Origin: Neptunomonas japonica DSM 18939
GTDB lineage: Bacteria > Pseudomonadota > Gammaproteobacteria > Pseudomonadales > Balneatricaceae
Direction: 5' to 3'
Assembly (NCBI RefSeq): GCF_000422765.1
Contig: NZ_KE383917.1
Location: 97,096 to 161,095 of the forward strand
Length of the DNA stretch: 64,000 nucleotides
Below, in pieces: positions 1-58,960 of the stretch. Position numbers and translations under genes: made by a program. Position 1 is the first letter of the stretch; each line of letters begins with the position of its first letter. The notes beneath the pieces are model-generated. The model did not search any database. It saw only the letters and a program-made list of their open reading frames with translations, and had not been told where the DNA came from.

Positions 1-76
1 TGGCGTCCCATAGGGGGTTCGAACCCCTGTTACCGCCGTGAAAGGGCGGTGTCCTAGACCACTAGACGAATGGGAC
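1..76 (-). tRNA. tRNA-Glu (anticodon TTC)
   Basis: Read on the minus strand, this folds as a complete 76-nt cloverleaf. The acceptor stem GTCCCAT pairs with ATGGGAC, the discriminator is G, and a genomically encoded CCA ends exactly at base 1. The anticodon stem CCGCC/GGCGG encloses loop CTTTCAC, giving anticodon TTC for glutamate. The T arm carries the canonical GGTTCGAACCCC. The next gene on the minus strand, if any, lies outside the window. Confidence 0.97.
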
Positions 77-114
77 GCTAAAACACTCAAAGCTTTACCT
101 CAAATGCGGGGCGT

Positions 115-143
115 ATATTATGCCTGGGATCAGATTACGTCAA
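115..143 (-). promoter_or_regulatory. sigma70 promoter of tRNA-Glu
   Basis: On the minus strand TTGACG (138-143) and TAATAT (115-120) are separated by exactly 17 bases, a near-consensus sigma70 promoter about 40 bases upstream of the tRNA. The stretch just after the -10 box (ACGCCCCGC) is GC-rich. GC-rich discriminators are known from stringently controlled stable-RNA promoters, so growth-rate control is a reasonable inference. Confidence 0.75.
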
Positions 144-207
144 GCATTATTTTTAAATGATTTTCCTATAAAATCAATTACTTCATTATTTGAGAAATAA
201 CGTACTT

Positions 208-891
208 ATGTCTTCTACTGGAACCGCTATTATCATCGTCATTGTGATTGGTGTTTTGATAGGCGTCGCTATTATTATTCAGAGCATTGAACATCAGCGT
301 CAACAAAAGCGTACACGCATGCAAGCCATTCGTAACACCATACGCAACACTGAACAACTCTATGGCGCGCTTCCTAGCTGCTTGGTATCAGAGCCACTAA
401 ATCACCTTATCAGCCAACATATTAACTCTCAATGGAAAAATTTATTGCTGCTGGATAATAATGCAGCTTTACAAAAAGCGGCTCAGGAAAGCCTTCAAAA
501 GTTATCAGGTTTTTCACCCGATAATACTTATCCAGCAGGTTCGTTAACGCTACTGAATGATAAAAACGAGGCTCAAAAGACAACGCAAGCCGCCCGAGAA
601 TTATCTCAATGGTTACAAACCTTGAAAAAAAGTAGCATTTCAGCACAAATCATTAACGACCTTTTGTCCCATCTTCAGTACAGCCATGCTCAAGCCAACA
701 TAGATTGCATGATATTTGATGCCATAGAATGTGAGCAAATGAAAGGGGCAAGAGTATCTATTCATCAGTATAAAAATTGTCTGAACTCATTGAATAATAT
801 GCACTACTTCCAGAAGCATGACAGACAAGTGTTCGAGCTAAGCAGTCATATTGAAACACTATTAAATCAAGCAGATGAAACTGATCAATAA
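208..891 (+). CDS. Hypothetical single-pass membrane protein
   Basis: I do not recognise a named family in this 227-residue protein. After MSSTG comes a very hydrophobic stretch (about residues 6-28, rich in Ile/Val/Gly) that reads as an N-terminal membrane anchor. It is followed by a polar, helix-rich domain of about 200 residues with several cysteines (for example in LPSCLV, DCMIF and AIECEQM). The anchor is followed by basic residues, suggesting that the soluble part is cytoplasmic. I chose the ATG at 208. An in-frame TTG at 190 would add six residues with no better ribosome binding site. It is a monocistronic-looking gene between tRNA-Glu (opposite strand) and the GST-like gene. Confidence 0.7.
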   Translation: MSSTGTAIIIVIVIGVLIGVAIIIQSIEHQRQQKRTRMQAIRNTIRNTEQLYGALPSCLVSEPLNHLISQHINSQWKNLLLLDNNAALQKAAQESLQKLSGFSPDNTYPAGSLTLLNDKNEAQKTTQAARELSQWLQTLKKSSISAQIINDLLSHLQYSHAQANIDCMIFDAIECEQMKGARVSIHQYKNCLNSLNNMHYFQKHDRQVFELSSHIETLLNQADETDQ

Positions 892-987
892 GAAACCAGC
901 AAAGGCTCTAAGCAAACAAGCCACTAGCACAAACAAAGGGTTTCCCCTTATCATGAGCTATCATTTTCTTAATTTGGGAAAACGTTT

Positions 988-1641
988 ATGAAGCCAGTAC
1001 TCTATGGAGCTCCACTATCACCTTTTGTGCGCAAAGTTAGATTATTACTTGATTTTAAAGGAGTTGATTACGATTCAAAGATGATCATTCCTTACGCCAC
1101 ACCCGAAGGATACGAAGCCCTCAACCCTCTAAAAAGAGTCCCCGCGCTTATTTTAGGAGATAATGTGCTGGCAGATTCTGCCGTTATCGCACATTTTTTG
1201 GATGCCCACTATCCAGAAAAGAAACTAATACCCAATGACCTTTTACTAAAAGCTCGTTGCGAGTGGCTTGAAAAGTACGCAGATTATGAACTCTCAGCTC
1301 ATACAACTTTTACCGTATTTAGCCAAAGAATTTTAAACCGTATTGCAGGCAAGAAACCTAACGAAGAGATTGTTCAAAAAGCCATTCACGAAAAGCTTCC
1401 ACCCCTCTTTGACTATTTGGAATCACAACTAAACGGTCTACATTTCATTGCAGATGAGCTCACGCTTGCCGACATTAGCGTAGCCAGCCAGCTTATCTCT
1501 TATGAACATGCCAACGAAACGGTACCTGATGACAAATGGCCAAAACTTGCGCAGCTCTACCAGCACTTTAAACAACAAACGATTGTTGAGCAGGTTGTAT
1601 CATCTGAAAAAGTCATGCTCAAGAAAATACTAGGCGCTTAG
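988..1641 (+). CDS. Glutathione S-transferase family protein
   Basis: This 217-residue protein has the two-domain GST layout. An N-terminal thioredoxin-fold domain (about residues 1-78) opens with LYGAPLSPFVRKVRLLLDFK, contains the cis-proline region KRVPAL, and has the glutathione gamma-glutamyl binding motif ADSAVIAHFLD. An all-helical C-terminal domain contains LTLADISVASQL, the usual N-capping box/hydrophobic staple. Ser11 in the SPFVRK loop could be the catalytic residue. The substrate cannot be told from sequence. GST relatives such as SspA-type proteins or isomerases are alternatives. The gene stands alone on the plus strand, and no RBS stronger than GGGAAAACG precedes the ATG. Confidence 0.85.
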   Translation: MKPVLYGAPLSPFVRKVRLLLDFKGVDYDSKMIIPYATPEGYEALNPLKRVPALILGDNVLADSAVIAHFLDAHYPEKKLIPNDLLLKARCEWLEKYADYELSAHTTFTVFSQRILNRIAGKKPNEEIVQKAIHEKLPPLFDYLESQLNGLHFIADELTLADISVASQLISYEHANETVPDDKWPKLAQLYQHFKQQTIVEQVVSSEKVMLKKILGA

Positions 1642-1659
1642 TAGAAGAATTCAAAAAGA

Positions 1660-1689
1660 TGAGTCACCCATTATTGTTTGGCTGACTCA
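1660..1689. terminator. Possible hairpin between convergent genes
   Basis: TGAGTCA (1660-1666) and TGACTCA (1683-1689) form a 7-bp inverted repeat with a 16-base loop, just after the GST-like stop and before the convergent DUF2845 gene. There is no strong T tract, so termination activity is only a suggestion from position. Confidence 0.3.
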
Positions 1690-1763
1690 CTAATATTTCG
1701 CCTACCCATTAATACAGCATCGACCAATCCAGACTAACCGTGCATAACTTAACGACACGCTTA

Positions 1764-2036
1764 CTAGCGATAGGTCCACTCAATATTGACTACCTGACCA
1801 CTTTTCATATCAATAAACCATTTACGGCCATCAAAGCGATAAACCATACGGGTTACTGAGCAGGTACGACCAGATCCACATCGAGTTTTAGCTTTGTATT
1901 TTGCAATAGGCTTACCGAGGTTTTCGTAGACTTTGGACAACTCATCTCCAGAGGATAATAGCTGCCCATTAGATAACCGCAAAGCAGATGCCTGACTACT
2001 AACAAGCAACGCGAGTAAAACAAGTAATTTACGCAT
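1764..2036 (-). CDS. DUF2845 family secreted protein
   Basis: A 90-residue protein starting MRKLLVLLALLVSSQASA has a typical Sec signal peptide with a probable cut after ASA, so the mature protein is a periplasmic polypeptide of about 72 residues. The mature part, with LSNGQLLSSGDELSKVYENL and a Cys pair (CGSGRTC), then RMVYRFDGRKWFIDMKSGQV, matches my recollection of DUF2845, a family of unknown function. The two cysteines could form a disulfide. I chose the ATG at 2036, with GGAG five bases upstream, over the in-frame GTG at 2042. It is convergent with the GST-like gene and downstream of the transporter gene on the same strand, about 100 bases away. Confidence 0.75.
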   Translation of the reverse strand: MRKLLVLLALLVSSQASALRLSNGQLLSSGDELSKVYENLGKPIAKYKAKTRCGSGRTCSVTRMVYRFDGRKWFIDMKSGQVVNIEWTYR

Positions 2037-2134
2037 AAACACTCCATCTTCCTTGATGTAAGGCGTTCGATATAGTTAGGCCGCTGATCCTAACTGGCTT
2101 TTTCTTCACTCCTTAAAAGAGTGAGATAACTATT

Positions 2135-3244
2135 TTAAGATAGCGCAGGCTGCTCTTTAACGCCAACAGGCGACACTTCGCCCTTTCTCGTTTTCCATTC
2201 ACGATCGACTGCCGCATCTGTCAATGCAGCACCGGCCCACATAGACGCTAAAGCGACCCATGCGGTGATTGAAAAAGCAGACCCTCCGGTCAACCCAGCA
2301 CCTACAGCACAACCGCCCGCTAACATCCCTCCCATTCCCATAAAAGAAGCCCCTACAATATAACGAATCATACTGCGGCCTTCTTGGAACCCCTGTAGTT
2401 TTAGCTCACGAGATAAAAAAGCTGCCAGAAAGGACCCTAAAAACACACCAGGAACTAGACCAACATCAAAATCCAATGCCACATTATCAGGTGTTAATAA
2501 ATACATAAGCGTATCGGCAGATGGACCAGTAAAAGTCATGCTTTCAACTTGGGTGGGATCAAACGTTTGATAAGATAAATGATAAGTGAACCACCAGCCT
2601 CCAACCACCATTGCACCTACGCCTACCGAGCCAATCCATGCCCAAGGGGTTAGTTTGTTCTTTATACCGTAAAAAATAGCGATGACCATACAAACTACAC
2701 CTAGATAGATACCTGTGTATGACCCCCACCCTAAAAAAGAAATCAGCTCCAAACCGCCATCATTATGCAGCACCCACGCTCCAGCAATGCTATCCCGCAC
2801 CGGAGCCAAGACTCCTTTCAACGAAGCTTGCGCTACTGCTGCAAACAATAAACCAGAGAATAGCGCCCTTAAGTTACCTGTAGCTGCAAGTACTAAAAGT
2901 CGAGACCCACATCCTCGCGCTAAAATCATACCCGCACCAAATAGCAAACCACCTACAATAGCACCAGATAGGCTTCCATAGCTGGCCAGCATTCTAGAAT
3001 CAGTGATATCCAGCTCACCCAAGGTAATAAGAATCTGAGTCCCTCCTACAGCAGCAGAGAATGTCAGTAACCAGATAGCCACTTTTTTACCGATAGCACC
3101 TCGAGCAAACTCAACCACCGCAGCACGTAAACAAAACTGGCTTCTTTGCGCAAACACGCCAAACATGCAACCCAATAACAAGCCGCCAAAGGCATTGCTA
3201 CCTGACTCGCCAAGCAAAGAAATAAGAAACTCAAAATCCATCAT
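2135..3244 (-). CDS. YeeE/YedE (TsuA-like) sulfur-compound transporter
   Basis: A polytopic membrane protein of 369 residues with the repeated YeeE/YedE (DUF395) signature. The first half has GCMFGVFAQRSQFCLRAA and later GMILARGCGSRLLVLAATGN. The second half has GGMLAGGCAVGAGLTGG. In thiosulfate transporter TsuA, cysteines in these motifs relay thiosulfate across the membrane, and three equivalent cysteines are visible here (in QFC, RGC and GGC). Import of thiosulfate or a related sulfur compound is therefore likely, although other members carry selenium or unknown sulfur species. The start is placed at the first of two adjacent ATG codons (3244). A terminator separates it from the upstream kinase gene, so it is probably its own unit. 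Confidence 0.85.
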   Translation of the reverse strand: MMDFEFLISLLGESGSNAFGGLLLGCMFGVFAQRSQFCLRAAVVEFARGAIGKKVAIWLLTFSAAVGGTQILITLGELDITDSRMLASYGSLSGAIVGGLLFGAGMILARGCGSRLLVLAATGNLRALFSGLLFAAVAQASLKGVLAPVRDSIAGAWVLHNDGGLELISFLGWGSYTGIYLGVVCMVIAIFYGIKNKLTPWAWIGSVGVGAMVVGGWWFTYHLSYQTFDPTQVESMTFTGPSADTLMYLLTPDNVALDFDVGLVPGVFLGSFLAAFLSRELKLQGFQEGRSMIRYIVGASFMGMGGMLAGGCAVGAGLTGGSAFSITAWVALASMWAGAALTDAAVDREWKTRKGEVSPVGVKEQPALS

Positions 3245-3310
3245 AACACCCAATAAATCTAAGCATTTGGAATTTATATATAACAATAACTTATATAAAA
3301 TTTCGCTTAT

Positions 3311-3341
3311 AAAAAAGACCTCTCATAACCCGAGAAGTCTT
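3311..3341 (-). terminator. Rho-independent terminator after the luxP-like/kinase operon
   Basis: On the minus strand AAGACTTCTC, a 7-base loop and GAGAGGTCTT form a stem with one G.U/mismatch position, running directly into TTTTTT. It sits about 85 bases past the kinase stop and before the YeeE gene, separating the two units. Confidence 0.75.
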
Positions 3342-3425
3342 ATATTAGGTAAGTATCATAAAGTTTTACCCGTTATTTAGCGTTGCCACAGATCAAAAAA
3401 CAACCAATACAGGTAATATTCAAAA

Positions 3426-5141
3426 CTAATCACCATTCCTATCTAAAGGCACAGCAACTCGCAAACTGACGCCATCATCGGATAAAATTGATAATTTAGC
3501 TCCGATATACTCGCACCGCTCTTTTATTCCTAGCAAACCAAACCCAGTATGTTCTTTCTTATAATGCTGGGATTCATCCAACCCCTGCCCATTGTCGATG
3601 ATGCTCAGCAGTATTTGGTTGTCATCGCTGTATAAAGAAATAGAAACTTCCGTTGCTAGTGCGTGCTTCATAATATTGGTCAACGCTTCCTGAATAATTC
3701 GATACAGATGAATATCAGTGCCTGGTGGCATTTTTATTTCATCAATATCAAGCGCTACTTTAACGCCGGTCTGCCGTAGGCTATTCAACGTGGGGATCTG
3801 CTGTATAGATTGGCTCAAACCTAATGTATCTAGCTCTACGGGCCTTAGTGACATAATCCGATCATAAACCGTAGAATACATATCTGAGACTAGCTGTTTA
3901 ATTTTGAAGCTGTGGCCTAACGATGGACTGTTAAGCGGAATCTGATGTTCAAGCAACACAGTCTCAACTCTAACTGCAGTCAGTAACTGTCCTAGCTCAT
4001 CATGTAGTTCCTGTGCGAGATGGCTTCTTTCTTGTTCTTGGCTCTGAATTAACTGATATAAGATAGTGCGCTTTTCCTGCAACGTTGTCTCAAGCTTTGC
4101 ATTGGTATCTTTGAGCTCAAAACGACGTTCAAATAACTCTTTCACAATGAGATCGATCTCTTCACCAATCCGATTAAACTCATGAATACCGCCAACATCC
4201 CAGCCTACATCTTTACCCTTATTTGCCAAATCACGAATATACAGAATTAACTTTTGAAGCTGCTTATCAAGTGCTAATGAGAGTAGAAAGGCTACAGCAG
4301 CACTCACCAACAAACCGATGAGCGCCCCGCTACCCAATAACTTGATAAACTGGATAGCAAGAGAGCGCGTATCTTGTTGTGAAGCGGTTAACTCTAATTC
4401 TAAACCAGCACCAAACTGCCCAAAATCTTCGGTATACTTCTCTAGTGTATTATCTTCTAACCATTTCTTTTCATTAACTGTCAAAGCCTTCCCTAAAGGC
4501 CTATATGAATTAATAGACTTACCAGCAAGCCTTAATTGGGCGCCATCAAGATCAACAACTGACCGGTTAACCAATTGACTTAATAGCAAGATGTTACTCG
4601 ATAATTTAATGCCACCAATCATCCGACCAATAACTTTTTGCTCGCTATTAGTCACCAAGTAATCTTTAGCAAGCAATACCTGCGGCCCGTTACGATAAAT
4701 ATTCCACTCCTGAGTCATTACCCGTGTATAGCTTTGATAAAGATCATGACAAATTTCGCTCCCGATATTGATTAAGCGACTTTTAATCAAATAGCACTGC
4801 TTACTGTCTAATGAACTCAATATGATGAACTGATAACGCTGCATAGAAGAAGGACGCTCTCCTTCCATTATGAGCTGGCGTAATTCAATCTCACCACCTT
4901 CCTCCATAGCCACCTGTAACTCAGGCATTGACTTTAGGTTATGTAGTTCTTGATCAATTAACCGCAAATAAGTATTGAGTTCGTGACGAATAGCGCCCGC
5001 ACTTTGCGATAAAGATGCCAGCGTCTCTTCTTTTAAGACTTTCTCAGTTGCATGATAAGCATTGAAAGCAAAGACAGAGAGAAAGCCTGATAAAGTAATT
5101 AAGAAAAGTAAAAAAGTAAGTGTGCGAAACCGTAAAATCAT
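3426..5141 (-). CDS. Membrane sensor histidine kinase, HisKA_3 (NarL/UhpB) type, LuxQ-like topology
   Basis: A 571-residue sensor kinase. TM1 (about 8-29) and TM2 (about 263-290) bracket a periplasmic sensor domain of about 230 residues. A HAMP-like and coiled-coil linker (about 291-365) follows. The dimerisation/phosphoacceptor helix carries SHLAQELHDELGQ with His380, the HisKA_3 pattern. The HATPase_c domain has an N box (EALTNIMKHA) and G boxes (DNGQGL, HTGFGLLGIKER). There is no receiver or HPt domain, unlike the hybrid kinase LuxQ, although the size and topology of the sensor half resemble LuxQ. Its ATG overlaps the stop of the LuxP-like gene (ATGA), so the two are translationally coupled and the periplasmic protein is very probably its ligand-sensing partner. 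HisKA_3 kinases normally pair with LuxR/NarL-type regulators. None is adjacent. Confidence 0.93.
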   Translation of the reverse strand: MILRFRTLTFLLFLITLSGFLSVFAFNAYHATEKVLKEETLASLSQSAGAIRHELNTYLRLIDQELHNLKSMPELQVAMEEGGEIELRQLIMEGERPSSMQRYQFIILSSLDSKQCYLIKSRLINIGSEICHDLYQSYTRVMTQEWNIYRNGPQVLLAKDYLVTNSEQKVIGRMIGGIKLSSNILLLSQLVNRSVVDLDGAQLRLAGKSINSYRPLGKALTVNEKKWLEDNTLEKYTEDFGQFGAGLELELTASQQDTRSLAIQFIKLLGSGALIGLLVSAAVAFLLSLALDKQLQKLILYIRDLANKGKDVGWDVGGIHEFNRIGEEIDLIVKELFERRFELKDTNAKLETTLQEKRTILYQLIQSQEQERSHLAQELHDELGQLLTAVRVETVLLEHQIPLNSPSLGHSFKIKQLVSDMYSTVYDRIMSLRPVELDTLGLSQSIQQIPTLNSLRQTGVKVALDIDEIKMPPGTDIHLYRIIQEALTNIMKHALATEVSISLYSDDNQILLSIIDNGQGLDESQHYKKEHTGFGLLGIKERCEYIGAKLSILSDDGVSLRVAVPLDRNGD

Positions 5142-6223
5142 TTACGCACGTCTCCAGAATAAATAAAGGCTTCCTTTATATATCGATTAATCAAACTTAC
5201 ATCCATACCTTGGGTCAGCACTCTAAAATCACCTGCATATACATTAGGTATTGGCTGATCTAACATATCTAACCTTATCGCTTCAGCCATGGCGATACCA
5301 TTCTGGTCGTTCACACGCATGAGCACTACATCCAACAAGCCTTCTTGAAAAGCATCTAACTCAGCTCGACCTCCTCCCCAGCCATTAATTGCCACATCGG
5401 ATCGCTGTAATTCTTTAAGAGCATCCACTGCACCCAACGCAGCATCCGTTGAGCATGCATAAATATATTTGAGCCCAGGGCTGTTCTTAAGCATAAGCAA
5501 TGTTGAGCGCTTAGCTTGTGCTCTACTTTGCGTGTAGTAGCTCGCTTTTAACTTATGATAGCTGCCTACATTGCGCTCAAACGTTAGCCCACGCTGATCA
5601 CTGAGGACACCTTTCCCCCAAAAAATAATACCGTACTCACTACCCTTTGAAAAACGCTGTTTAAAGTACTGTGCTAACTTATCTGCACCTTCAACATGAT
5701 CAAATCCGATATAAATTAACGGTTGAATGTCGTACCAATCAGCTATAGGTCGAGTCAAATTTTGGATAATAAGTTTAGGCTCTTTTCTTTGCAGTAAGGC
5801 TTCTACCATGCGCTGTTGGCGGAGTGAGTTAATGGTATAAACCAAGTAGTCTGGTTCATGTTCCAGCATTTCAAGAATGTGCGCTTCTTGAAGATCCAGC
5901 TGAGTATGAGGTTGGGAAAAGCGAATATCGAGCTTATATAAAATACCTAAGTCATCCAACCTGCCTCTAAGTGCAGTTAAGCTACGCTGCCAATAATCGG
6001 ATGCCTGCAGCCCTGGATAAACAACTGCAATTTTGACCTCTTCTTTCTGTTTTACAACGGGGAGTAAATACACTTGGTCGATGAGGTATTTAAACTCATT
6101 GCGAGCCCCTTCATGTACATCCGCTTTGGCACTGGCGGATAGACCCATAAAGCATATAAAAAGAAGATATATGAACCCTCTTTTATAACCAGCGCCCTTA
6201 CTAACCTCTGGCTTTAAATCCAT
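5138..6223 (-). CDS. luxP: LuxP-like periplasmic autoinducer-2 binding protein
   Basis: A 361-residue periplasmic binding protein with an N-terminal signal sequence (hydrophobic about 17-31, then SASAKA). It aligns along its whole length with Vibrio LuxP from memory: YPGLQASDYW, IIQNLTRPI, YIGFDHVEGA, YACSTDAALGAVDAL, INGWGGGRAELDA and LMRVNDQNGIAMAEAI. The residues that contact the furanosyl borate diester in V. harveyi LuxP (Gln77, Ser79, Trp82, Asn159, Arg215, Thr266, Trp289, Arg310) all appear conserved, as Gln73, Ser75, Trp78, Asn155, Arg211, Thr259, Trp282 and Arg303. This makes true AI-2 binding likely rather than generic sugar binding. It is first in an operon with a coupled sensor kinase. 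No luxS lies in the window. Confidence 0.92.
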   Translation of the reverse strand: MDLKPEVSKGAGYKRGFIYLLFICFMGLSASAKADVHEGARNEFKYLIDQVYLLPVVKQKEEVKIAVVYPGLQASDYWQRSLTALRGRLDDLGILYKLDIRFSQPHTQLDLQEAHILEMLEHEPDYLVYTINSLRQQRMVEALLQRKEPKLIIQNLTRPIADWYDIQPLIYIGFDHVEGADKLAQYFKQRFSKGSEYGIIFWGKGVLSDQRGLTFERNVGSYHKLKASYYTQSRAQAKRSTLLMLKNSPGLKYIYACSTDAALGAVDALKELQRSDVAINGWGGGRAELDAFQEGLLDVVLMRVNDQNGIAMAEAIRLDMLDQPIPNVYAGDFRVLTQGMDVSLINRYIKEAFIYSGDVRK

Positions 6224-6299
6224 ATTAAGCCCTACCCATCATTGTTTATATAATGAAGAATAGAGCAGATACAGAGAATTTTCAGTGCATTATGAAAAT

Positions 6300-6926
6300 T
6301 TAATATAACAAAGGAAACTGCTGCTTAAGCCTATCTAGGTCTTCGGGGCGATCAACATCCCACAAGCAAGCAGGTTCGCACCACTTTACACTTAGCTGCC
6401 TTAACTTATCTCGGGTTTGCTGCATGACTCTTTCAGTGCCCCACTCTACACTCGAAAATACATTACTGAGTGCCTCATGATTTTTTTTAAAGCCCACCAG
6501 CGTATAGCCACCATCATCAGCAGGTAAAAAAACGGCATCATTACTCTCAAGTACGCAGGCACACTCTTCTATCAGTGCGGCATCTATGGCTGGGCAATCG
6601 CTACCTATTAGCAATGTACCTTTATCATTGTTCAGCAAAACACTGGTGATCGCATTTTTCATCCGCTCACCCAGGTCTACGCCTTCCTGAAGTTTATGCA
6701 CCAAAGGATAACGAGCCAACAAGTCAGCAATAAAAGGGTGGGCGCTACCCTCAGGCGTGAAGAGGTAAATAGGAAAGCAGGCCGACTCCATTGCCCGTTG
6801 AACCGTGTGCTCCAATAAGCGCGAATGCAATTGTGCAGCACCTTCAGCCCCTAGCGCAGGTATTAAGCGTGTTTTGGCCACTCCAGCGACTGGCGCCTTA
6901 GCGAAAATAATTAAAGCTGTACTCAT
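6300..6926 (-). CDS. TIGR04282-type arsenosugar-associated nucleotidyl/glycosyltransferase
   Basis: A 208-residue DUF2064-like protein. The N-terminal IIFAKAPVAGVAKTRLIPAL is the nucleotide-binding signature of this GT-A-like family, and LLIGSDCPAID carries the metal-binding Asp region. DDGGYTLVGF, WGTERVM and WDVDRPEDLDRL complete the family pattern. Members encoded beside ArsS and the TIGR04283 glycosyltransferase are classed as arsenosugar biosynthesis glycosyltransferases; the actual reaction has not been established to my knowledge. The start overlaps the stop of the upstream glycosyltransferase by four bases, so the two are coupled. It is the last gene of the arsenic operon. Confidence 0.85.
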   Translation of the reverse strand: MSTALIIFAKAPVAGVAKTRLIPALGAEGAAQLHSRLLEHTVQRAMESACFPIYLFTPEGSAHPFIADLLARYPLVHKLQEGVDLGERMKNAITSVLLNNDKGTLLIGSDCPAIDAALIEECACVLESNDAVFLPADDGGYTLVGFKKNHEALSNVFSSVEWGTERVMQQTRDKLRQLSVKWCEPACLWDVDRPEDLDRLKQQFPLLY

Positions 6927-7630
6927 TTACTTTGTTTCTCTACTTGATAACCATAACGCTTCGCAAGCTTTTCAGGCGCTTCCCCACACCAATATGCCCA
7001 CCTTAGCGACCACATTAACCAAATCGTTTTATAAGCACCCTTCTCTTCCCATCGACGGCCAGACGTCTTTACCTTTTGCTTAAGACAGTGCGGTTTTTTT
7101 TCTTGAAGAAGCCTTCGGGAGATTTCGATATCTTCCATCAATGGCTGCTCAGGAAAGCCTCGCACTTTATCGAACAGCGAGCGGCTAATAAACATTCCCT
7201 GATCACCGGTAGCGATGCCGGTTGCTCTGGAACGAGCATTCATGAAAAGCGCAATAACAGGTAGCATCCAATGCGCTCCCTCAATGCTTACATCAAAGCG
7301 TCCCCAAAAATCACAACAATCGCGATTAACCAGCAATAGCTCCTTTAGATTAGCGGGCACTTCAGTATCCAAGTGCAAGAAAAAAAGCAGTCCAGCTGAT
7401 GCCGCTGCAGCGCCCGCATTCATCTGTCTGGCCCGCCCAGATGGTGACTCAACAAGTTTATCAACCCATGAGCGGGCCAGATCAACACTGTCATCCCTAC
7501 TCCCGCCATCAACAAGAATAAGTTCACACTGGGGCCTTAAATATTGCAGCGATTGCAACTTTGAAACAATAATTGCTGATTCATTCAAGATAGGAATGAT
7601 GATTGAAACAGCAGGGCTATTTAGAGGCAC
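6923..7630 (-). CDS. TIGR04283-type arsenosugar-associated family 2 glycosyltransferase
   Basis: A 235-residue GT2 enzyme. VSIIIPILNESAII is the GT2 nucleotide-sugar entry motif, LILVDGGSRDDSVDLA carries the DGGS motif, and FFLHLDTEVP gives the metal-binding DxD-like position. MEDIEISRRL matches the catalytic ED region. Together with the neighbouring TIGR04282 protein and ArsS, this identifies the arsenosugar-associated subfamily. It starts at a GTG with AGGTG upstream, two bases after the hydroxylase-type gene, and overlaps the next gene by four bases. A role in glycosylating an arsenical or lipid is inferred from the gene neighbourhood. Confidence 0.87.
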   Translation of the reverse strand: MPLNSPAVSIIIPILNESAIIVSKLQSLQYLRPQCELILVDGGSRDDSVDLARSWVDKLVESPSGRARQMNAGAAAASAGLLFFLHLDTEVPANLKELLLVNRDCCDFWGRFDVSIEGAHWMLPVIALFMNARSRATGIATGDQGMFISRSLFDKVRGFPEQPLMEDIEISRRLLQEKKPHCLKQKVKTSGRRWEEKGAYKTIWLMWSLRWAYWCGEAPEKLAKRYGYQVEKQSK

Positions 7631-7632
7631 TA

Positions 7633-8442
7633 TTAAGGCACCTGACGAGAAGAGATCAGCTTTTGCAAAGGCAACTTAAGCAATGCTAAAAAGCCTAACG
7701 CCGGTTGCTGTCGGTGCTCAGACAAGCCTAACCGCATCTGCTGGTGATTATCCTTAGGTTCAACCGTGTAGGTTGCAAAAAGGCGATCCCAAATAGACAG
7801 AAAAAAACCATAGTTGCTGTCTGTTTCTTCTTGGTAGACAGAATGGTGGATACGATGCATATCGGGAGTACAAACGACCCAACGAAGAGCGCTGTCTAGC
7901 CTCGACGGCAAGCGGATATTAGCATGCGTAAAAATGGCTGAAGCATTGAGTACAATTTCAAACGTAATAACGACCAAAGGATCAATGCCTAACACTACAA
8001 TTATTAGGGCCTTATAGATCAGAGACAATACGATTTCTACTGGATGAAACCGCAAAGCAGAAGTCACGTCTAGATCAAGGTCGGTGTGGTGCACTTGATG
8101 TAAACGCCACAGCACAGACCACTTATGTGTAACCCAGTGCTGGCCCCAAATAGCCATATCCAGCAGTAAAAATCCAACTACCGACGAGATAACTGCCGGT
8201 AATTGCAACCAATAAAACAGGCCGACTTGTTCCTGCTGGGCCCACACGGCAGTGGTCACCGCAATAGCCCCAACAGTCAGTCGTACAATAAGAGTATTCA
8301 TCAAAATAATGGCTAAATTTATACGCCAACGAGTTAGTCGGGACTCGCGCCAAGCGCGTTTTGGACGTATCCATTCAATACCGGCACACACCACAAAAGC
8401 ACCCAGAAAAAAAACTAGCCTAAATGTAGCTTCATCTTGCAC
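7633..8442 (-). CDS. Sterol desaturase/fatty acid hydroxylase family membrane enzyme
   Basis: A 269-residue polytopic protein with the diiron histidine clusters of the fatty acid hydroxylase superfamily: HWVTHK, then LHQVHHTD, and distally HRIHHSVYQEETDSNYG, matching HX3H, HX2HH and HX2HH. About four membrane helices precede and separate the boxes. It would use O2 to hydroxylate or desaturate a lipid or other hydrophobic substrate. The GTG start at 8442 has GGAG ten bases upstream and lies two bases after the oxidoreductase stop. Sitting inside the arsenic operon, it may modify an arsenolipid or membrane lipid, which is my inference. Confidence 0.88.
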   Translation of the reverse strand: MQDEATFRLVFFLGAFVVCAGIEWIRPKRAWRESRLTRWRINLAIILMNTLIVRLTVGAIAVTTAVWAQQEQVGLFYWLQLPAVISSVVGFLLLDMAIWGQHWVTHKWSVLWRLHQVHHTDLDLDVTSALRFHPVEIVLSLIYKALIIVVLGIDPLVVITFEIVLNASAIFTHANIRLPSRLDSALRWVVCTPDMHRIHHSVYQEETDSNYGFFLSIWDRLFATYTVEPKDNHQQMRLGLSEHRQQPALGFLALLKLPLQKLISSRQVP

Positions 8443-8444
8443 GT

Positions 8445-10589
8445 CTAGCTCCTACGCCATGTATGAAAACGCGCCAGCCATACCATGACTTTTGGTGACA
8501 CATGTGCGCGCTTCCACTCACCAGCAGCATATTTATTGGCCTCTGAAAAAGTGGGATAAGTATGGATAGTTCCTAGCAGCTTATTCATACCTAAACCGTA
8601 CTTCATCGCCAAGACAAACTCAGCTAATAACTCAGCACTGTGCTTGCCAACAATGGTTACACCTAAGATTTTATCTTTACCAGCAACCGTAATGACCTTA
8701 ACAAAGCCGTGATCATCACCATCAGCAATAGCACGGTCAAGATCATCAATGCCATAACGCGTTACCTCATAAGCTAGACCTTGCGCTTTCGCTTCGCTTT
8801 CACTCACGCCAACGCGTGCCACTTCAGGGTCAGTAAAGGTCACCCAAGGGATAACACGGTAGTCCACTTTAAAGCGCTTAAAACCACTGAACAGCGCATT
8901 AACTGCTGCGAACCATGCTTGATGTGCTGCAACGTGGGTAAACTGGAAAGGCCCAGTAACATCACCACACACATATACATTTGGAAAACGAGTTTGCATA
9001 AAACCATTACAGTCCAGTGTTCCGTTTTCACGTGTTTCTATGCCAAGAGCTTCAAGACCAAACCCACCAGTGTTCGCTTCTCGCCCTAGTGCTAACAGCA
9101 ATTTATCAAATGGTAGCTCGACAGTTTCTCCTGCCTGTTCCACAAGCAGGTAAGCCTGCCCTTCTCGCACAGCGACTTCTTTAGCCGTACTAGACAAATG
9201 AAGAGCAATACCTTCATCTGTAAACTGCTGTTCGACTAACACTTGAGCATCTTCGTCTTCTCTTGGCATCAAATGAGGTGCGCGTTGCACAATGCTCACG
9301 TCACTGCCTAACCGGGAAAATGCTTGGGATAATTCACACCCTATTGGCCCGCCACCTAATACAATAAAACGCTTTGGTAATTCTTCAAGTTCCCACAAGG
9401 TGTCAGACGTCAGATAATCGACTTGATCCAGCCCAGAAATGTTAGGAACGCGTGGACGCGCGCCCGTGGCAATGATGACTGATTTTGCAGATAAGGTTTG
9501 CTGCTCACCATTCTCTTTCGTGACGGATACTTCCCAAGGAGAAACAATGCTAGCGGTACCTTGGATGACATCCACACCGAGGTTCGTATAACGCTCAATG
9601 GAATCATGCGGTTCTATCTTTTCGATAACATTCTTAACACGCCCCATAACTGCTGCGAAATCAACTTGGGGTTCAACCGACTGAATTCCAAACTGATCAG
9701 CTTGGCGCATTTCATACGCTTGCCTAGCCGAGCGAATTATTGCTTTAGAAGGTACGCAGCCCGTATTCAAGCAGTCCCCACCCATCTGATGCTTTTCTAT
9801 GAGTGTCACTTTAGCTTTTACCGCCGCAGCAATATAAGCACTCACTAAGCCACCACTACCCGCGCCAATAACAATCAGATTTGTATCGAATTTTTTCGGT
9901 TTATTCCAGCCTTCATACACTTTACGAGCCTGAACAAGTTCTACAATTTTTCTAGCAATGAGAGGGAATATTCCCAGTAAAGCGAATGCACCAATAATCT
10001 CTATCGTCAAAATTCCTGACAATGAATCAATTTTAGCCAATTGTGTACCGGCATTAACGAACACTAAAGTACCCGCTAACATTCCTAACTGACTCACCCA
10101 CCAAAATGTTTTGGCAGGCATACGCGTAAGTCCCATCAACAAGTTGATCATAAAGAAAGGGAAGATAGGAATCAGACGTAACGTAAACAAATAGAAAGGG
10201 CCGTCTTTTTCAACACCCTCATCAATTGGTGCGATAGATGAAGCAAATTTACCACGTACCCAGTCACTAATCAGATAACGAGAAGCCAGCATTGCCAAGG
10301 TAGCCCCTAACGTTGAAGCGAAAGAGATCAAAATACCTCCCCATAACAGTCCAAAAAGCGCACCACCCGCCAGCGTCATAATAACTGCACCAGGGATCGA
10401 CAGGGCCGTTACCAGAACGTAAATAAGGAAAAAGGTAACACTAGCAACAACAGGGTTAAGATCTCGCCATGATGCCAACTCTGTCTGTTGAAATTTAAGA
10501 TTCTCCAGCGTCAACAATGAAAAACCGCCGGACTGCCAAGTAATCAGCAACGCAACAATAATGACTAATACGACTAACAAACGCTTCAT
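8445..10589 (-). CDS. TVP38/TMEM64 membrane domain fused to a mercuric-reductase-like FAD oxidoreductase
   Basis: A 714-residue fusion. Residues about 1-230 form a TVP38/TMEM64 (SNARE-associated, DedA-like) membrane domain with helices around 3-20, 48-64, 68-108, 135-153 and 165-215. Residues about 236-714 form a class I pyridine nucleotide-disulfide oxidoreductase. It has the FAD motif GAGSGG (242-247), the redox-active pair Cys273/Cys278 in GGDCLNTGCVPSK, the NAD(P)H-binding motif GGGPIG, the second FAD motif VYVCGDVTG, and a dimerisation domain with HTYPTFSE. It lacks the mercuric reductase N-terminal metal-binding domain and the C-terminal vicinal Cys pair. A membrane-tethered reductase for an arsenical or disulfide substrate fits the neighbourhood, but the substrate is unknown. 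Confidence 0.9.
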   Translation of the reverse strand: MKRLLVVLVIIVALLITWQSGGFSLLTLENLKFQQTELASWRDLNPVVASVTFFLIYVLVTALSIPGAVIMTLAGGALFGLLWGGILISFASTLGATLAMLASRYLISDWVRGKFASSIAPIDEGVEKDGPFYLFTLRLIPIFPFFMINLLMGLTRMPAKTFWWVSQLGMLAGTLVFVNAGTQLAKIDSLSGILTIEIIGAFALLGIFPLIARKIVELVQARKVYEGWNKPKKFDTNLIVIGAGSGGLVSAYIAAAVKAKVTLIEKHQMGGDCLNTGCVPSKAIIRSARQAYEMRQADQFGIQSVEPQVDFAAVMGRVKNVIEKIEPHDSIERYTNLGVDVIQGTASIVSPWEVSVTKENGEQQTLSAKSVIIATGARPRVPNISGLDQVDYLTSDTLWELEELPKRFIVLGGGPIGCELSQAFSRLGSDVSIVQRAPHLMPREDEDAQVLVEQQFTDEGIALHLSSTAKEVAVREGQAYLLVEQAGETVELPFDKLLLALGREANTGGFGLEALGIETRENGTLDCNGFMQTRFPNVYVCGDVTGPFQFTHVAAHQAWFAAVNALFSGFKRFKVDYRVIPWVTFTDPEVARVGVSESEAKAQGLAYEVTRYGIDDLDRAIADGDDHGFVKVITVAGKDKILGVTIVGKHSAELLAEFVLAMKYGLGMNKLLGTIHTYPTFSEANKYAAGEWKRAHVSPKVMVWLARFHTWRRS

Positions 10590-10690
10590 CGGTTACTCCC
10601 GATAATAGTGATTCAGGCTAGAGCCTACCTAACAACTTCGTTTTAGTAAGCCCACGCTATTAACTAGATACTTAATGAAAATATGCGGAA

Positions 10691-11650
10691 TTAACTCAGC
10701 GCTCCACCACAGCTAGACCCTTGACCCGCTGTACAGCCGTAACAGTGGTCACCAATCCGTATTGCGCTTTCTTGCAGGCCTTCTTTGAGTAAAGCCTCTA
10801 AATGAATAGGCTCACGACTACTACCTAAAGGCATTTTTAGCTGTTGATTAAAATCACAGTCATGCACAAAGCCTTGCCAATCGACCGAAATCAATGAGCG
10901 GCACATAAGACTATCCAACGTTGCTTCATTAAAAGAAGCACGTAATAGATCCATATAAGGAAGAAAGGTCTTTTTAGAAATGAGCATACTGCCAAAACGT
11001 TGAATAGGCATATTCGCTAGCGTAAATAAATTAGAAAACTGCACACCATAGCGGGCATCTAATTCGGATTTATAAGAAATTTCTAAAGCCACCTGCTCCG
11101 GCGGTAAAACTGGACCTTGCGGGTTATAAACAAGATTAAGTACTTTGCCTGAACCTTCTTGTGCATATCCAAGCTTGTTGAGTTTTGTTAACCCTTCTAT
11201 GCTCGCCAAGAAAACACCATCACCGCGTTGAGCATCAACATTATCTTCTAAATAACAAGGCAATGATGCTACGACTTCAACATCATGTTCAGCTAAAAAC
11301 TCCGCGAAATCTTCATAACCAGGCTCACACAGAATGGTCAGGTTACAACGGTCTATGACCTTTACACCTAACTTACGTGCCTCAATAACTAAGCGCTTAA
11401 AATGCTGATTCATCTCCGGCGCACCACCCGTTAAATCGAGTGTGGTGATATCGTACTTTTCAATAAAGTCCAACATCAACTGCATCGTTTCCCAATCCAT
11501 CTCTTCAGTGCGTTTTGGGCTAGCCGCCACATGGCAATGGAGACAAGATTGATTGCAGCGATAGCCCAAATTTGCCTGTAACGTATCTAATTTAGTACGT
11601 GTAATAGAGGGGAAATCTGTCTGAATCAGGTGTGGCAGCATTTCATGCAT
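10691..11650 (-). CDS. arsS: Arsenosugar biosynthesis radical SAM protein ArsS
   Basis: A 319-residue radical SAM enzyme. LGYRCNQSCLHCHVAASP contains the CX3CX2C cluster motif (Cys32, Cys36, Cys39), and LDLTGGAPEMN supplies the GGE-like SAM-binding strand. A cysteine-rich C terminus (MCRSL, HDCDF, HCYGCTAGQGSSCGG) is typical of the ArsS subfamily. Homologous ArsS is reported to join the 5-prime-deoxyadenosyl group to a methylated arsenical, giving the arsenosugar skeleton. That reaction usually depends on ArsM, which is not encoded in this window. The gene lies 141 bases after arsJ and 101 bases before the FAD oxidoreductase. Confidence 0.92.
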   Translation of the reverse strand: MHEMLPHLIQTDFPSITRTKLDTLQANLGYRCNQSCLHCHVAASPKRTEEMDWETMQLMLDFIEKYDITTLDLTGGAPEMNQHFKRLVIEARKLGVKVIDRCNLTILCEPGYEDFAEFLAEHDVEVVASLPCYLEDNVDAQRGDGVFLASIEGLTKLNKLGYAQEGSGKVLNLVYNPQGPVLPPEQVALEISYKSELDARYGVQFSNLFTLANMPIQRFGSMLISKKTFLPYMDLLRASFNEATLDSLMCRSLISVDWQGFVHDCDFNQQLKMPLGSSREPIHLEALLKEGLQESAIRIGDHCYGCTAGQGSSCGGALS

Positions 11651-11791
11651 ATGAGGTTCTCTTTCACTTTTTGATTTATTAAGGTTAGTCGAATGAAATA
11701 CCTAAACCTTACATTTCTTTTAAATATTATTTTATCTATTAAAAAACAACGAAGACTATCGTGACATCTCAAGCTGAAACGAAAATGAAAT

Positions 11792-13018
11792 TTAAATCTT
11801 TTGAGGCAATTTAAATGAGATAAGCCACGCCAAAAGCAGGAATAGCGACGATATCCACAAACACGCCTCCAATCCATAGAGCTGATACACACCCCCTGAA
11901 AGCAAAGTGCCCACCAACCGCCCCATTGCATTTGCCATGTAGTAAAAACCGACATCGAGCGATACGCCGTTTTCTTTGGCGTAACTTACAATGAGATAAC
12001 TGTGCAATGACGAGTTCACGGCAAAGAAAGCCCCAAACAGCATTAATCCACCAATCAAACAGGGCTGTAACCATTCAGAAGCAAACGGCATCTGCGTAGT
12101 CGAGTTGAGAGTAACAGCCATAAATGCAGGGATCATTAAGAGTGGAAGCAACCAGGCAACAGCCGCCCTTCCATCCGGTACTGCTCCAGATCGCTTGCCT
12201 GTTACATAAGGAGCCAGCGACTGAATAACACCATAGCCAACCACCCAGCACGCCATAAAACTACCGACCGACCAATGATCCCAACCAAGGGTCTCAGCAA
12301 AAAACACAGGAATCGCCACGACAAACCAAACATCTCTGGCGGCAAAAAGAAATAATCGTGCAGCAGATAAAACGTTTACAGCTCGGCTTTTTGAGAATAT
12401 TTCTTTAAATTTCGGCTTAGTTTTGGTTTTACCTAATGATTTTTTCAGGCAGAAAATCGATATCATCCAGACAACAAATAAACCAACAGCCATCATCAAA
12501 ACAGACGAAGTAAAACCAAACAATGTCAGTAATACACCACCCAGAAAAAAGCCCACACCTTTTAAGGTATTTTTAGAACCAGTTAACAGCGCTACCCATT
12601 GATACAGCTTACCCTGAGCATCTTCTGGTACAAGTAATTTAATAGCACTCTTGGCGCTCATTTTATTAAGATCTTTCGCGATACCCGATAATGCCTGCGC
12701 GGCCATGACCCACGGAACCGTTAACCACGCAGCGGGAGCAGCTAACATAATAAGCGCCCCTACTTGCAGTATCAGCCCGATATTCATTGTCTTATTCAAA
12801 CCAAGGCGAGCGCCCAACCAGCCGCCTACTAGGTTAGTTACCACACCAAAAACTTCGTAAAAGAGGAACAAAAACGCGATATCTAACGGGGAATAACCCA
12901 AGGCATGAAAGTGGAGCACTACCAACATGCGTAGCGCTCCATCAGTCAATGTAAAAGCCCAGTAGTTAGCGGTAATTAGCAAGTACTGGCGAATCTCAGA
13001 AGAGATTGATGCAAACAT
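11792..13018 (-). CDS. arsJ: Organoarsenical efflux MFS transporter ArsJ
   Basis: A 408-residue major facilitator protein with about 12 membrane helices. Signatures include the N-terminal NYWAFTLTDGALRMLVVLHF, the early loop GGWLGARLGLNKTMN, and GIAKDLNKMSAKSAIK, as I recall for ArsJ. ArsJ exports 1-arseno-3-phosphoglycerate, the unstable product made when GAPDH uses arsenate, so the pair detoxifies As(V). The adjacent GAPDH gene seven bases upstream supports this strongly. I chose the ATG at 13018, just after the GAPDH stop; the longer frame would need a TTG inside the GAPDH gene. Confidence 0.93.
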   Translation of the reverse strand: MFASISSEIRQYLLITANYWAFTLTDGALRMLVVLHFHALGYSPLDIAFLFLFYEVFGVVTNLVGGWLGARLGLNKTMNIGLILQVGALIMLAAPAAWLTVPWVMAAQALSGIAKDLNKMSAKSAIKLLVPEDAQGKLYQWVALLTGSKNTLKGVGFFLGGVLLTLFGFTSSVLMMAVGLFVVWMISIFCLKKSLGKTKTKPKFKEIFSKSRAVNVLSAARLFLFAARDVWFVVAIPVFFAETLGWDHWSVGSFMACWVVGYGVIQSLAPYVTGKRSGAVPDGRAAVAWLLPLLMIPAFMAVTLNSTTQMPFASEWLQPCLIGGLMLFGAFFAVNSSLHSYLIVSYAKENGVSLDVGFYYMANAMGRLVGTLLSGGVYQLYGLEACLWISSLFLLLAWLISFKLPQKI

Positions 13019-13025
13019 GGAATAA

Positions 13026-14036
13026 TTACTGCTGATCAATCAACCCCACCTTTTTAACCAGTTCAGCCGTCCGGTTCGCGTAACCCCACTCATTGTCATA
13101 CCAGATATATACTTTTACCTGTGTGCCATTCACAACCATAGTGGATAAGGCATCAATAATGCCTGAGCGAGGGTCTGTCTTGTAATCAATAGAGACGAGT
13201 GGACGCTCTTCGTAGCCAAGAATCCCTTTTAACTCCCCTTCTGCCGCGTCTTTAAACAACTCGTTTACTTCTGCTTCTGTGGTTGTTTTTTCAACTTCAA
13301 AAACACAATCAGTTAGAGAAGCATTGGCCAGTGGTACACGAACAGCATGGCCATTTAAGCGACCTTTTAGCTCAGGAAAAATATGAGTGATTGCCGTCGC
13401 CGAGCCCGTAGTTGTTGGAATCAAGCTCATTCCGCAGGCACGTGCCCTACGTAAATCTTTATGGGGCGCATCCAAAATAGTTTGTGTATTTGTCACATCA
13501 TGAATGGTGGTCATCGAACCATGGCGAATTTTTAGATTTTCATGAATCACCTTCACCACTGGAGCCAAGCAGTTGGTAGTACAAGAAGCCGCCGTTACAA
13601 TACTATGAAGCTCAGGATCATAAAGATCATCATTCACACCTAGCACCACATTAAGTACACCCTCTTCTTTAACAGGAGCACTCACCACCACGCGCGTTAT
13701 TCCTTGATCTAAATAACCCTGCAACAGTGCTTTGGTCTTCATTTTCCCCGATGCTTCAATAACAATATCGCAGCCCGACCAATCAGTATCCGAGATCGCT
13801 CGGTTATGGCTCACGGTTAAAGACTTATCACCCACCAAGATACGATAACCTTCGGCCTGTGCATCATGCTGCCAGCGCCCATGTACAGAATCAAAATTCA
13901 ATAAGTGGGCAAGTGTTGGAGCATCACCACCCGGATCATTAACATGCACAAACTCAATTTCAGGCCAGTCCCATGCTGCACGCATTGCCAGACGCCCGAT
14001 ACGCCCAAAACCATTAATACCCACTTTAATCGTCAT
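13026..14036 (-). CDS. ArsJ-associated glyceraldehyde-3-phosphate dehydrogenase
   Basis: A 336-residue GAPDH. It has the NAD-binding start [20 protein letters not shown], the catalytic Cys in [13 protein letters not shown], the phosphate-site TTTGSATA and the C-terminal signature [11 protein letters not shown]. It is full length for the family. Here it probably acts with arsenate in place of phosphate to make 1-arseno-3-phosphoglycerate for export by the adjacent ArsJ, as shown for the homologous pair in Pseudomonas. A purely glycolytic role is unlikely given its place in the arsenic operon. AGGA lies eight bases before its ATG. Confidence 0.93.
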
Positions 14037-54783: not shown

Positions 54784-55830
54784 CTACGATGGCTCTTTAA
54801 CCGTTGTTGAAGCACCTGACTCACTCGCTTCGAAAGGAGCAACAACTTCAAGCCCAGGGAATTCAGTTTCAAGAAGTGCTTGGTTTTTCTCTTGGAAAAG
54901 TAGTTTTAAATTTGGCCCAGCATCCATAGTGAAGTACACCTCAACACCTGCCTCACGTAAGGCCCATATTTTCTGCATCGCGGCAACTGAGTCGGGCTGC
55001 CAATAAAGCAATGGAGGCCATGAAGCAATCATAGTGGCATGCATCGACATGGCGTTATGCTCTGCAACAGCACCTAGCTCAGAGAAGCTCCCATCACTGA
55101 GTGCCTGATGTATTTTTTCTAGATCTTGAGCGGCCTGCGCAGGCCAGCTCTGGTACAAACTAGCGGTTTCTACTGTTCGCTTCATTCCAGAACGAGAATC
55201 CACGGCCTTCACAGCAGTGCTGACCTTAACTAAACCCACTCTCAAATCTGGCCAGTTCACATCTAAAGGAAACGCATGGCTATCCATACCATCTTCTTGC
55301 AGCCCCATACGCCACTCAACAAAACCACTATAAATAGAGCGAGAGGCACTACCACTGCCCATACGTGCAAATGCTGAAAGCACAGTATCAGGGAACTGTA
55401 ATTGAAAATACTGATTAATGGCTAGAGTCAAAGCAGCAAACCCAGAAGCAGACGAGGCTAAACCTGCCGCTGTTGGGATATTATTTCGCGTATCGATAAT
55501 CACCGGATAAGACTGATCTCTTCGAAATAAACCAACAAAGGAGACTACTTTACGGGCAAAAGGAGACTCGACAGGTAACAACTGCCCATTAAGCATAACC
55601 TGATCTTCACCTGTTTGAGACGGGTGTATTTGAGTACGCGTTCCCAAATGCGCCAATGAAATCGATAAGCTCGAATTGACCGGCAAGTTTAGCTCGCTCT
55701 GTCTTTTACCCCAATACTTACATAAGGCAATATTACTAGGCGCAAACGCTTCTGCTTGGCCAGCGGCTATTAATTTTTTAGGCAAATAGCGAGCGACGAT
55801 ATCAGCTTTTGTAAAGTTCTCATTCAACAT
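54784..55830 (-). CDS. mvaD: Diphosphomevalonate decarboxylase
   Basis: A 348-residue GHMP-superfamily enzyme. SNIALCKYWGKRQSELNLPV is the substrate-binding start, SSLSISLAHLGTRT follows, and the ATP loop is NIPTAAGLASSASGFAALTL. RMGSGSASRSIYSGFVEW contains the conserved Arg, and FTMDAGPNLKLLF the late motif. It converts mevalonate 5-diphosphate to isopentenyl diphosphate. A mevalonate-3,5-bisphosphate decarboxylase role is possible but less likely. I chose the ATG at 55830, with TAGGAG upstream, overlapping the upstream kinase by 11 bases. It is the last gene of the mevalonate operon. Confidence 0.92.
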   Translation of the reverse strand: MLNENFTKADIVARYLPKKLIAAGQAEAFAPSNIALCKYWGKRQSELNLPVNSSLSISLAHLGTRTQIHPSQTGEDQVMLNGQLLPVESPFARKVVSFVGLFRRDQSYPVIIDTRNNIPTAAGLASSASGFAALTLAINQYFQLQFPDTVLSAFARMGSGSASRSIYSGFVEWRMGLQEDGMDSHAFPLDVNWPDLRVGLVKVSTAVKAVDSRSGMKRTVETASLYQSWPAQAAQDLEKIHQALSDGSFSELGAVAEHNAMSMHATMIASWPPLLYWQPDSVAAMQKIWALREAGVEVYFTMDAGPNLKLLFQEKNQALLETEFPGLEVVAPFEASESGASTTVKEPS

Positions 55831-58945: not shown

Positions 58946-58960
58946 ATTTGAATATGTTCC

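Follow-up and report, generated by a model that had tools for sequence, protein, structure and literature searches.

The question raised by positions 3426–6223 of a 64,000-nucleotide stretch of the Neptunomonas japonica DSM 18939 genome (contig NZ_KE383917.1, positions 97,096 to 161,095; here called the window) is what a LuxP-like protein does beside a histidine kinase with an output half unlike that of LuxQ. LuxPQ is the textbook receptor for autoinducer-2 (AI-2). A sequence-only reading of the locus had proposed AI-2 sensing by a route that skips the LuxU/LuxO phosphorelay and ends at an unlinked regulator. We find that the gene pair is real, intact and conserved, and is a form of the LuxPQ receptor in which the output has been exchanged. 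From their sequences, the two genes would specify a LuxPQ-type receptor complex for AI-2 whose output has been replaced and whose phosphate would pass in one step to an unlinked NarL/FixJ-family regulator, and we put the probability of this reading at about 0.73. The source genome is 4.39 Mb with Neptunomonas as its closest named records, and the locus has the following features.

5138..6223, minus strand: luxP orthologue, encoding a 361-aa periplasmic protein of the AI-2-binding type (open reading frame [ORF], homology and structure model)
3426..5141, minus strand: histidine kinase of 571 aa with a LuxQ-type sensor and a HisKA_3 transmitter, lacking a receiver or HPt domain (ORF, Pfam, NCBIfam)
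4107..5141, minus strand: sensor half of the kinase, residues 1–345 (hhalign, AlphaFold, Foldseek)
3429..4115, minus strand: transmitter half of the kinase, residues 343–571, HisKA_3 and HATPase_c, UhpB-like (Pfam, NCBIfam)
4002..4004, minus strand: codon of His380 in the motif HDELGQ, the predicted phospho-acceptor (motif, with Asp and Gln intact)
5138..5141, minus strand: 4-bp overlap ATGA, containing the luxP stop and the kinase start (ORFs, sequence)

Both reading frames have exactly the lengths, coordinates and 4-bp overlap first ascribed to them, and the ATGA arrangement makes translational coupling of luxP and the kinase gene likely. In all 26 of the fetched relatives with a HisKA_3 partner (see below), the start of the kinase frame falls in a range from 251 bp upstream to 13 bp downstream of the luxP end. 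There is no adjacent luxS, luxU or response regulator gene among the ORFs of window positions 1–14000, which were read by eye with six neighbours also run through NCBIfam.

A phmmer search of PDB sequences with the 361-aa protein recovers four distinct Vibrio harveyi LuxP sequences at E 6e-84, with the next match at 4.4e-7; identity to V. harveyi LuxP is about 40% over the alignment, and a Sec-type signal peptide is apparent by eye at about residues 1–34. An AlphaFold model of the protein (pLDDT 89.2) has AI-2-bound LuxP (1jx6) as its top Foldseek match (TM 0.86/0.91, rmsd 2.0), the comparison that the sequence-only reading had called for. We take Asp267 and Trp289 of V. harveyi LuxP to be part of the AI-2 pocket, together with the residues that form hydrogen bonds to the ligand. 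The latter are reported for 1JX6 as Ser79, Arg310, Arg215, Thr266, Asn159, Trp82 and Gln77 (PMC9687752). The window protein has the same residue at each of the nine positions (S75, R303, R211, T259, N155, W78, Q73, D260 and W282), consistent with the earlier claim that eight contact residues, which were not named, are retained.

The pocket is fully identical in 54 of 58 luxP-like loci in the family of the source genome (57 fetched regions and the window), including 26 of the 27 LuxPs paired with a HisKA_3 kinase. These counts are limited to the family set because the 80 named loci described below were retrieved by patterns containing pocket residues. The exceptions in the family are L035, L055 and L066, with one change each, and L088 (29%), which we excluded as an AI-2 receptor because it has lost three pocket residues and has no partner.

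One alternative is that the window LuxP has drifted to another ligand, which would be a sugar or an analogue of AI-2 (a pentulose-borate, for example), and that its partner is a sugar- or boron-ester-sensing kinase. The fold is common to ribose-binding proteins, the solved LuxP chains 4yp9 and 4yr7 hold AI-2 analogues, and the identity to V. harveyi LuxP is modest. However, the identical residues include the equivalents of Arg215 and Arg310, which a review ties to binding of the borated ligand (PMC3794749), the model is closest to the AI-2-bound form, luxS is present in the genome, and loss of three of the nine pocket residues is seen in the one LuxP-like protein without a partner; we regard a changed ligand as unlikely. 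By sequence the window protein is a LuxP orthologue with an intact AI-2 pocket, and we infer that it binds AI-2. It shares the fold of V. harveyi LuxP, as judged from sequence and model, and what differs between the two systems is the output half of the partner.

The partner is a non-hybrid HisKA_3 kinase, as had been proposed. Pfam places HisKA_3 at residues 371–436 and HATPase_c at 476–567, both above the gathering score, and there is no Response_reg, Hpt or HisKA match in the 571-aa protein; in a V. harveyi LuxQ control, HisKA, HATPase and REC were all detected. The nearest NCBIfam model is UhpB, which covers residues 343–565 at E 4e-45 but falls below its curated cut-off, and the MctS model also matches the transmitter. 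The motifs HDELGQ, EALTNIMKH and DNGQG are present, and the transmitter domain and HDxxxQ motif are those of UhpB/NarX/MctS-type kinases, from which the window kinase differs in having a LuxP/LuxQ-type periplasmic pair as its input and no adjacent regulator gene.

The sensor half is laid out as a first membrane helix, a LuxQ-type periplasmic domain, a second membrane helix and a HAMP-like linker (helix roles assigned by eye on the model), and the LuxQ-like topology noted in the sequence-only reading reflects real homology. The NCBIfam LuxQ_Vibrio model covers residues 14–345 (E 4e-8), at 31.5 bits against a cut-off of 1200. An hhalign comparison of 24 of the 27 HisKA_3-type sensors with 12 of 58 named hybrid LuxQ sensors (eleven from Vibrionaceae and one from a gammaproteobacterial metagenome-assembled genome [MAG]) gives 99.85% (E 1.5e-30, 329 columns), whereas 12 other HisKA_3 kinases of the family, run as a negative control, give 2%. 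The AlphaFold model of the sensor half (pLDDT 79.9, pTM 0.63) retrieves LuxQ periplasmic-domain crystal structures at Foldseek ranks 2–4, 6, 7 and 9 (TMt 0.71–0.78, with 2hje at 0.78), behind an integrative model of a chemoreceptor pair at rank 1. Profile and model comparison thus show homology of the sensor half to LuxQ, and the kinase gene overlaps luxP in the same order as in V. harveyi; the departure from LuxQ is the HisKA_3 transmitter, with neither HisKA nor a receiver. The statement that the kinase is not LuxQ is only half right because it holds for the output half and not for the sensor half.

Signalling might instead reach LuxO, either because the kinase is a canonical LuxQ or by way of a further hybrid kinase or HPt protein in the cell. 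In favour of this, the sensor half is LuxQ-like, HPt-domain proteins are present in the genome, and a 2008 survey mentions luxO genes in Oceanospirillales (PMC2561040). The Pfam results exclude a canonical LuxQ identity for the kinase, which has no HisKA, REC or HPt domain, and its score with LuxQ_Vibrio is far from the cut-off. No LuxU-like stand-alone HPt protein was found in the source genome at E≤0.001, in a search that did not extend to LuxO, and all ten Hpt matches at this threshold lie in frames of at least 687 aa. The same HPt search in V. harveyi matched the 114-aa LuxU, adjoining LuxO, and both were named by NCBIfam above cut-off. Since the kinase has no receiver or HPt domain and no LuxU was found, the usual LuxU/LuxO relay probably cannot run, in line with the proposal that the LuxU step is skipped, and we consider the relay explanation highly improbable.

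Returning to an AI-2 receptor with a replaced output, its mode of action would be as follows. LuxP would bind AI-2 in the periplasm and, by homology, dock on the periplasmic LuxQ-type domain of its partner kinase, and a ligand-driven change in the complex would shift the HisKA_3 transmitter, in which HDELGQ is intact, between kinase and phosphatase states. Because the kinase lacks a receiver and HPt and no LuxU was found, phosphate would be expected to pass in a single step to an unlinked NarL/FixJ-family response regulator. The genome encodes luxS, unlinked to luxP (C8:52786; 184.9 bits against a cut-off of 27), and has a single luxP at E≤0.001; with luxS present, the cell could detect AI-2 of its own making in addition to that from other cells.

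The choice of regulator is less clear. There are three HisKA_3 kinases in the source genome and the luxP-linked one is an orphan, because it alone has no adjacent NarL-type regulator. Eleven LuxR-type regulators score above cut-off, eight of them with a Pfam receiver, and two of these eight have no adjacent kinase gene (C7:19618-20280 and C3:238584, with receiver scores of 80.1 and 40.7 bits). The best candidate target is the orphan GacA/UvrY-like regulator G000:C7:19618-20280, preferred over the C3 orphan because its receiver is stronger; its label is that of its best NCBIfam match, which is below cut-off. Further candidates are the C3 orphan and an MctR-like regulator (C9:29489) with relatives downstream of the luxP-kinase pair in Marinobacterium. 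The window itself encodes a protein with a LuxR-type helix-turn-helix and no Pfam receiver (62551–63174, minus strand), adjoining a TolC-like gene (named by eye).

The eleven LuxR-type regulators of the source genome were also compared with every closed ORF of 80 aa or more from the 57 fetched regions, and matches shorter than 320 aa were kept. In none of the 26 HisKA_3 loci that were fetched is a LuxR-type regulator next to the kinase paired with luxP, other regulator families having had no dedicated model. Eight regulator ORFs of this type are present in the regions (in L042, L044, L045, L047, L054, L056, L057 and L063), and the nearest are MctR-like and about 4–5 kb downstream in Marinobacterium-type genomes. 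In seven of the eight Marinobacterium-type genomes (g5), an MctR-like regulator that adjoins another kinase gene lies downstream of the luxP-kinase pair, on the same strand (L042/L208, L043/L262, L044/L209, L045/L267, L046/L263, L051/L265 and L052/L266). These regulators are 63.6–67.9% identical to the regulator of the source genome, and Pfam identifies tripartite ATP-independent periplasmic (TRAP) transporter genes between them and the luxP-kinase pair (DctP, DctQ and DctM in L208, and DctM in L262).

This arrangement suggests that the kinase might share the regulator of another kinase, most plausibly an MctS/MctR-like pair concerned with carboxylate uptake, so that AI-2 would tune nutrient uptake and not a dedicated quorum regulon. 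The match of the window transmitter to MctS is in keeping with such sharing. However, 7 of the 27 genomes with a HisKA_3-linked luxP have no MctR-like protein at E≤1e-50, and the MctR-like gene of the source genome is about 70 kb distant and adjoins a kinase gene of its own; sharing of this kind is conceivable but doubtful.

Several observations weigh against one-step signalling from a LuxPQ-type receptor to an orphan regulator. The C7 regulator has a hybrid kinase with an HPt domain 2.4 kb downstream, and this hybrid could be its real partner. Regulators of the C7 type (E≤1e-35) are present in 25 of 27 genomes with a HisKA_3-linked luxP versus 79 of 89 others (p 0.73), which does not support the C7-type regulator as a co-inherited partner. 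The MctR-like type (E≤1e-50) is found in 20 of the 27 versus 44 of the 89 (p 0.03, uncorrected for kinship). Neither is a clear partner, and no regulator is consistently linked or co-inherited with the pair. On the sensor side, the window protein by itself falls below the Pfam LuxQ-periplasm threshold, which 7 of 24 HisKA_3 sensors reach, and an N-box pattern is absent by pattern search in 4 of 26 relatives.

Identifying a cognate regulator through the closest transmitter relatives of the kinase was likewise unsuccessful: 18 of 21 such loci have no adjacent LuxR-type regulator, two do (L229 and L230), and in one (L224) the kinase frame was not recovered. We note that the closest transmitter relatives outside luxP loci include another orphan HisKA_3 kinase (L210, L212-L220 and L226-L228), which is often near superoxide-dismutase-like and ABC-transporter-like genes (names assigned by eye).

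The luxP-HisKA_3 pair is conserved, and both its spread and the range of outputs go beyond what had been noted from the window. LuxP is present in 48 of 116 family genomes at E≤1e-20, representing 11 of 16 genera and all eight genomes examined from the genus, each of which also has the HisKA_3 partner. For the window and each of the 57 fetched regions, the partner type was assigned from a BLASTP comparison of the frame downstream of luxP with domain examples; Pfam analysis of eight partners beyond the window gave the same types, five of these being the domain examples themselves and L042, L068 and L081 the independent checks. The 58 loci comprise 27 with HisKA_3, 23 with GGDEF-EAL, two with HisKA and REC, two with HisKA without REC, three unassigned (one at a contig end) and one with no partner. 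Of the 58 LuxPs, 35 were used in the protein alignment. In one of the loci, L057:8241-10506, the frames after LuxP encode a plain HisKA kinase and then a receiver-only protein of 150 aa. The best 80 of 313 named loci, which overlap the family set, include 58 with HisKA and REC (mostly Vibrio), 16 with HisKA_3 (from Neptunomonas, Marinobacterium, Pontibacterium, a Neptuniibacter MAG and Oceanospirillaceae MAGs), two with HisKA (one a short frame) and four unassigned. Order- and class-wide samples are thin and bound the distribution poorly, with the kinase in 9 of 390 genomes (three candidates scored per genome) and LuxP in 2 of 369, the window genome included.

The patchy presence of the pair and the lack of a linked regulator could suggest a decaying remnant without function. 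We find this scarcely credible, as the LuxP and its HisKA_3 partner are retained in all eight genus genomes examined, the catalytic motifs are intact in the window and its genus relatives, and the pocket is identical in seven of the eight (L035 having the single change).

The GGDEF-EAL partners (L054, L056, L059, L060, L063-L065, L067-L072, L074-L077 and L080-L085) are putative AI-2-controlled enzymes of cyclic di-GMP (c-di-GMP) metabolism. The four analysed with Pfam have the domain order LuxQ-periplasm-PAS-GGDEF-EAL, 19 of the 23 contain both GGDEF and EAL motifs by the patterns used, and a sensor profile built from 12 of the 23 matches LuxQ sensors at 99.6%. Because partner outputs of several types occur among the 58 loci, we view LuxP and the LuxQ-type sensor as a module that is joined within the family to HisKA_3, PAS-GGDEF-EAL, plain HisKA and hybrid HisKA-REC outputs. 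That this is a portable AI-2 input module driving at least four kinds of output in one marine bacterial family seems to us quite likely, and the PAS-GGDEF-EAL membrane enzymes would then set c-di-GMP directly in response to AI-2. Several genomes carry two pairs of different type, for example HisKA_3 and GGDEF-EAL in G104, G106 and G107, and HisKA_3 and a hybrid in G018 and G103; such differently wired copies could let one signal act on transcription and on c-di-GMP at the same time.

Trees of LuxP (70 rows) and of the sensor (65 rows) give differing views of how often the outputs were exchanged. In the LuxP tree the main HisKA_3 group, 22 rows that include the window, is held together with support. 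Two smaller sets with this partner branch elsewhere, so that at least three label changes are forced, and GGDEF-EAL requires five changes, three of them forced. In the sensor tree a supported branch sets apart the 22 rows of the main HisKA_3 set, and another does so for the full 23 GGDEF-EAL rows. Both trees recover the same three HisKA_3 sets, whereas the GGDEF-EAL rows form one group only in the sensor tree. A single origin of the HisKA_3 wiring is compatible with the sensor tree because its deep branches are poorly supported.

Related arrangements have been described in part. According to the accessible text of the 2008 survey, the LuxP homologues of Oceanospirillales (Neptuniibacter caesariensis MED92 and Marinomonas MED121) share an operon with a PAS-containing regulator, the sensor kinase associated with them is a different one, and no luxS was then known in this order (PMC2561040). 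These resemble the window pair in having a LuxP homologue beside a non-LuxQ regulator, but no HisKA_3 or GGDEF-EAL output is named in that text, and luxS is present in our source genome. AI-2 receptors with dCache or GAPES1 domains (PctA, KinD, AsrK and YeaJ; PMC7584622, PMC12268683 and PMC11796354) similarly place AI-2 input on kinase or c-di-GMP outputs, but in these the membrane protein binds AI-2 directly, whereas here a LuxP-type binding protein is combined with a LuxQ-type domain. A 2020 paper describes LuxP as present only in Vibrio and gives a value of 0.16 µM for AI-2 binding by LuxP (PMC7584622). A 2025 survey lists LuxP proteins as having a sensor domain and nothing else, and reports that three chosen at random from a set of 267 (Proteobacteria and Deferribacterota) bind AI-2 (PMC12268683). 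We found no published LuxP-HisKA_3 or LuxP-GGDEF-EAL pairing in the literature searched, most subscription papers being outside its reach.

The well-known AI-2 sensor thus looks like a swappable plug-in part, and its occurrence with other outputs in a non-Vibrio family provides a natural set of chimeras in which the same input is placed on two kinase classes and on c-di-GMP enzymes. These could be used to ask how the ligand state of LuxP is relayed across the LuxQ domain, whether c-di-GMP can be set by AI-2 with no phosphorelay involved, and how luxS-carrying marine bacteria outside Vibrio use AI-2.

Downstream of the pair there is one additional feature.

3315..3341, minus strand: terminator-like hairpin 3′ of the kinase gene (hairpin scan)

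Three terminator-like hairpins are observed in positions 3200–7700, against 3.4 expected from shuffles. Arsenosugar-type genes start 76 bp upstream of luxP on the same strand; NCBIfam identifies TIGR04282 and TIGR04283 glycosyltransferases, ArsS, ArsJ and an ArsJ-associated glyceraldehyde-3-phosphate dehydrogenase at 6300–7630 and 10691–14036 (minus strand). Mevalonate-pathway genes, which are unusual for a gammaproteobacterium, are located at 55820–59995 (minus strand) and include those for mevalonate kinase, hydroxymethylglutaryl-CoA synthase and type 2 isopentenyl diphosphate isomerase by NCBIfam, together with a second GHMP-type kinase that scores below its cut-off.

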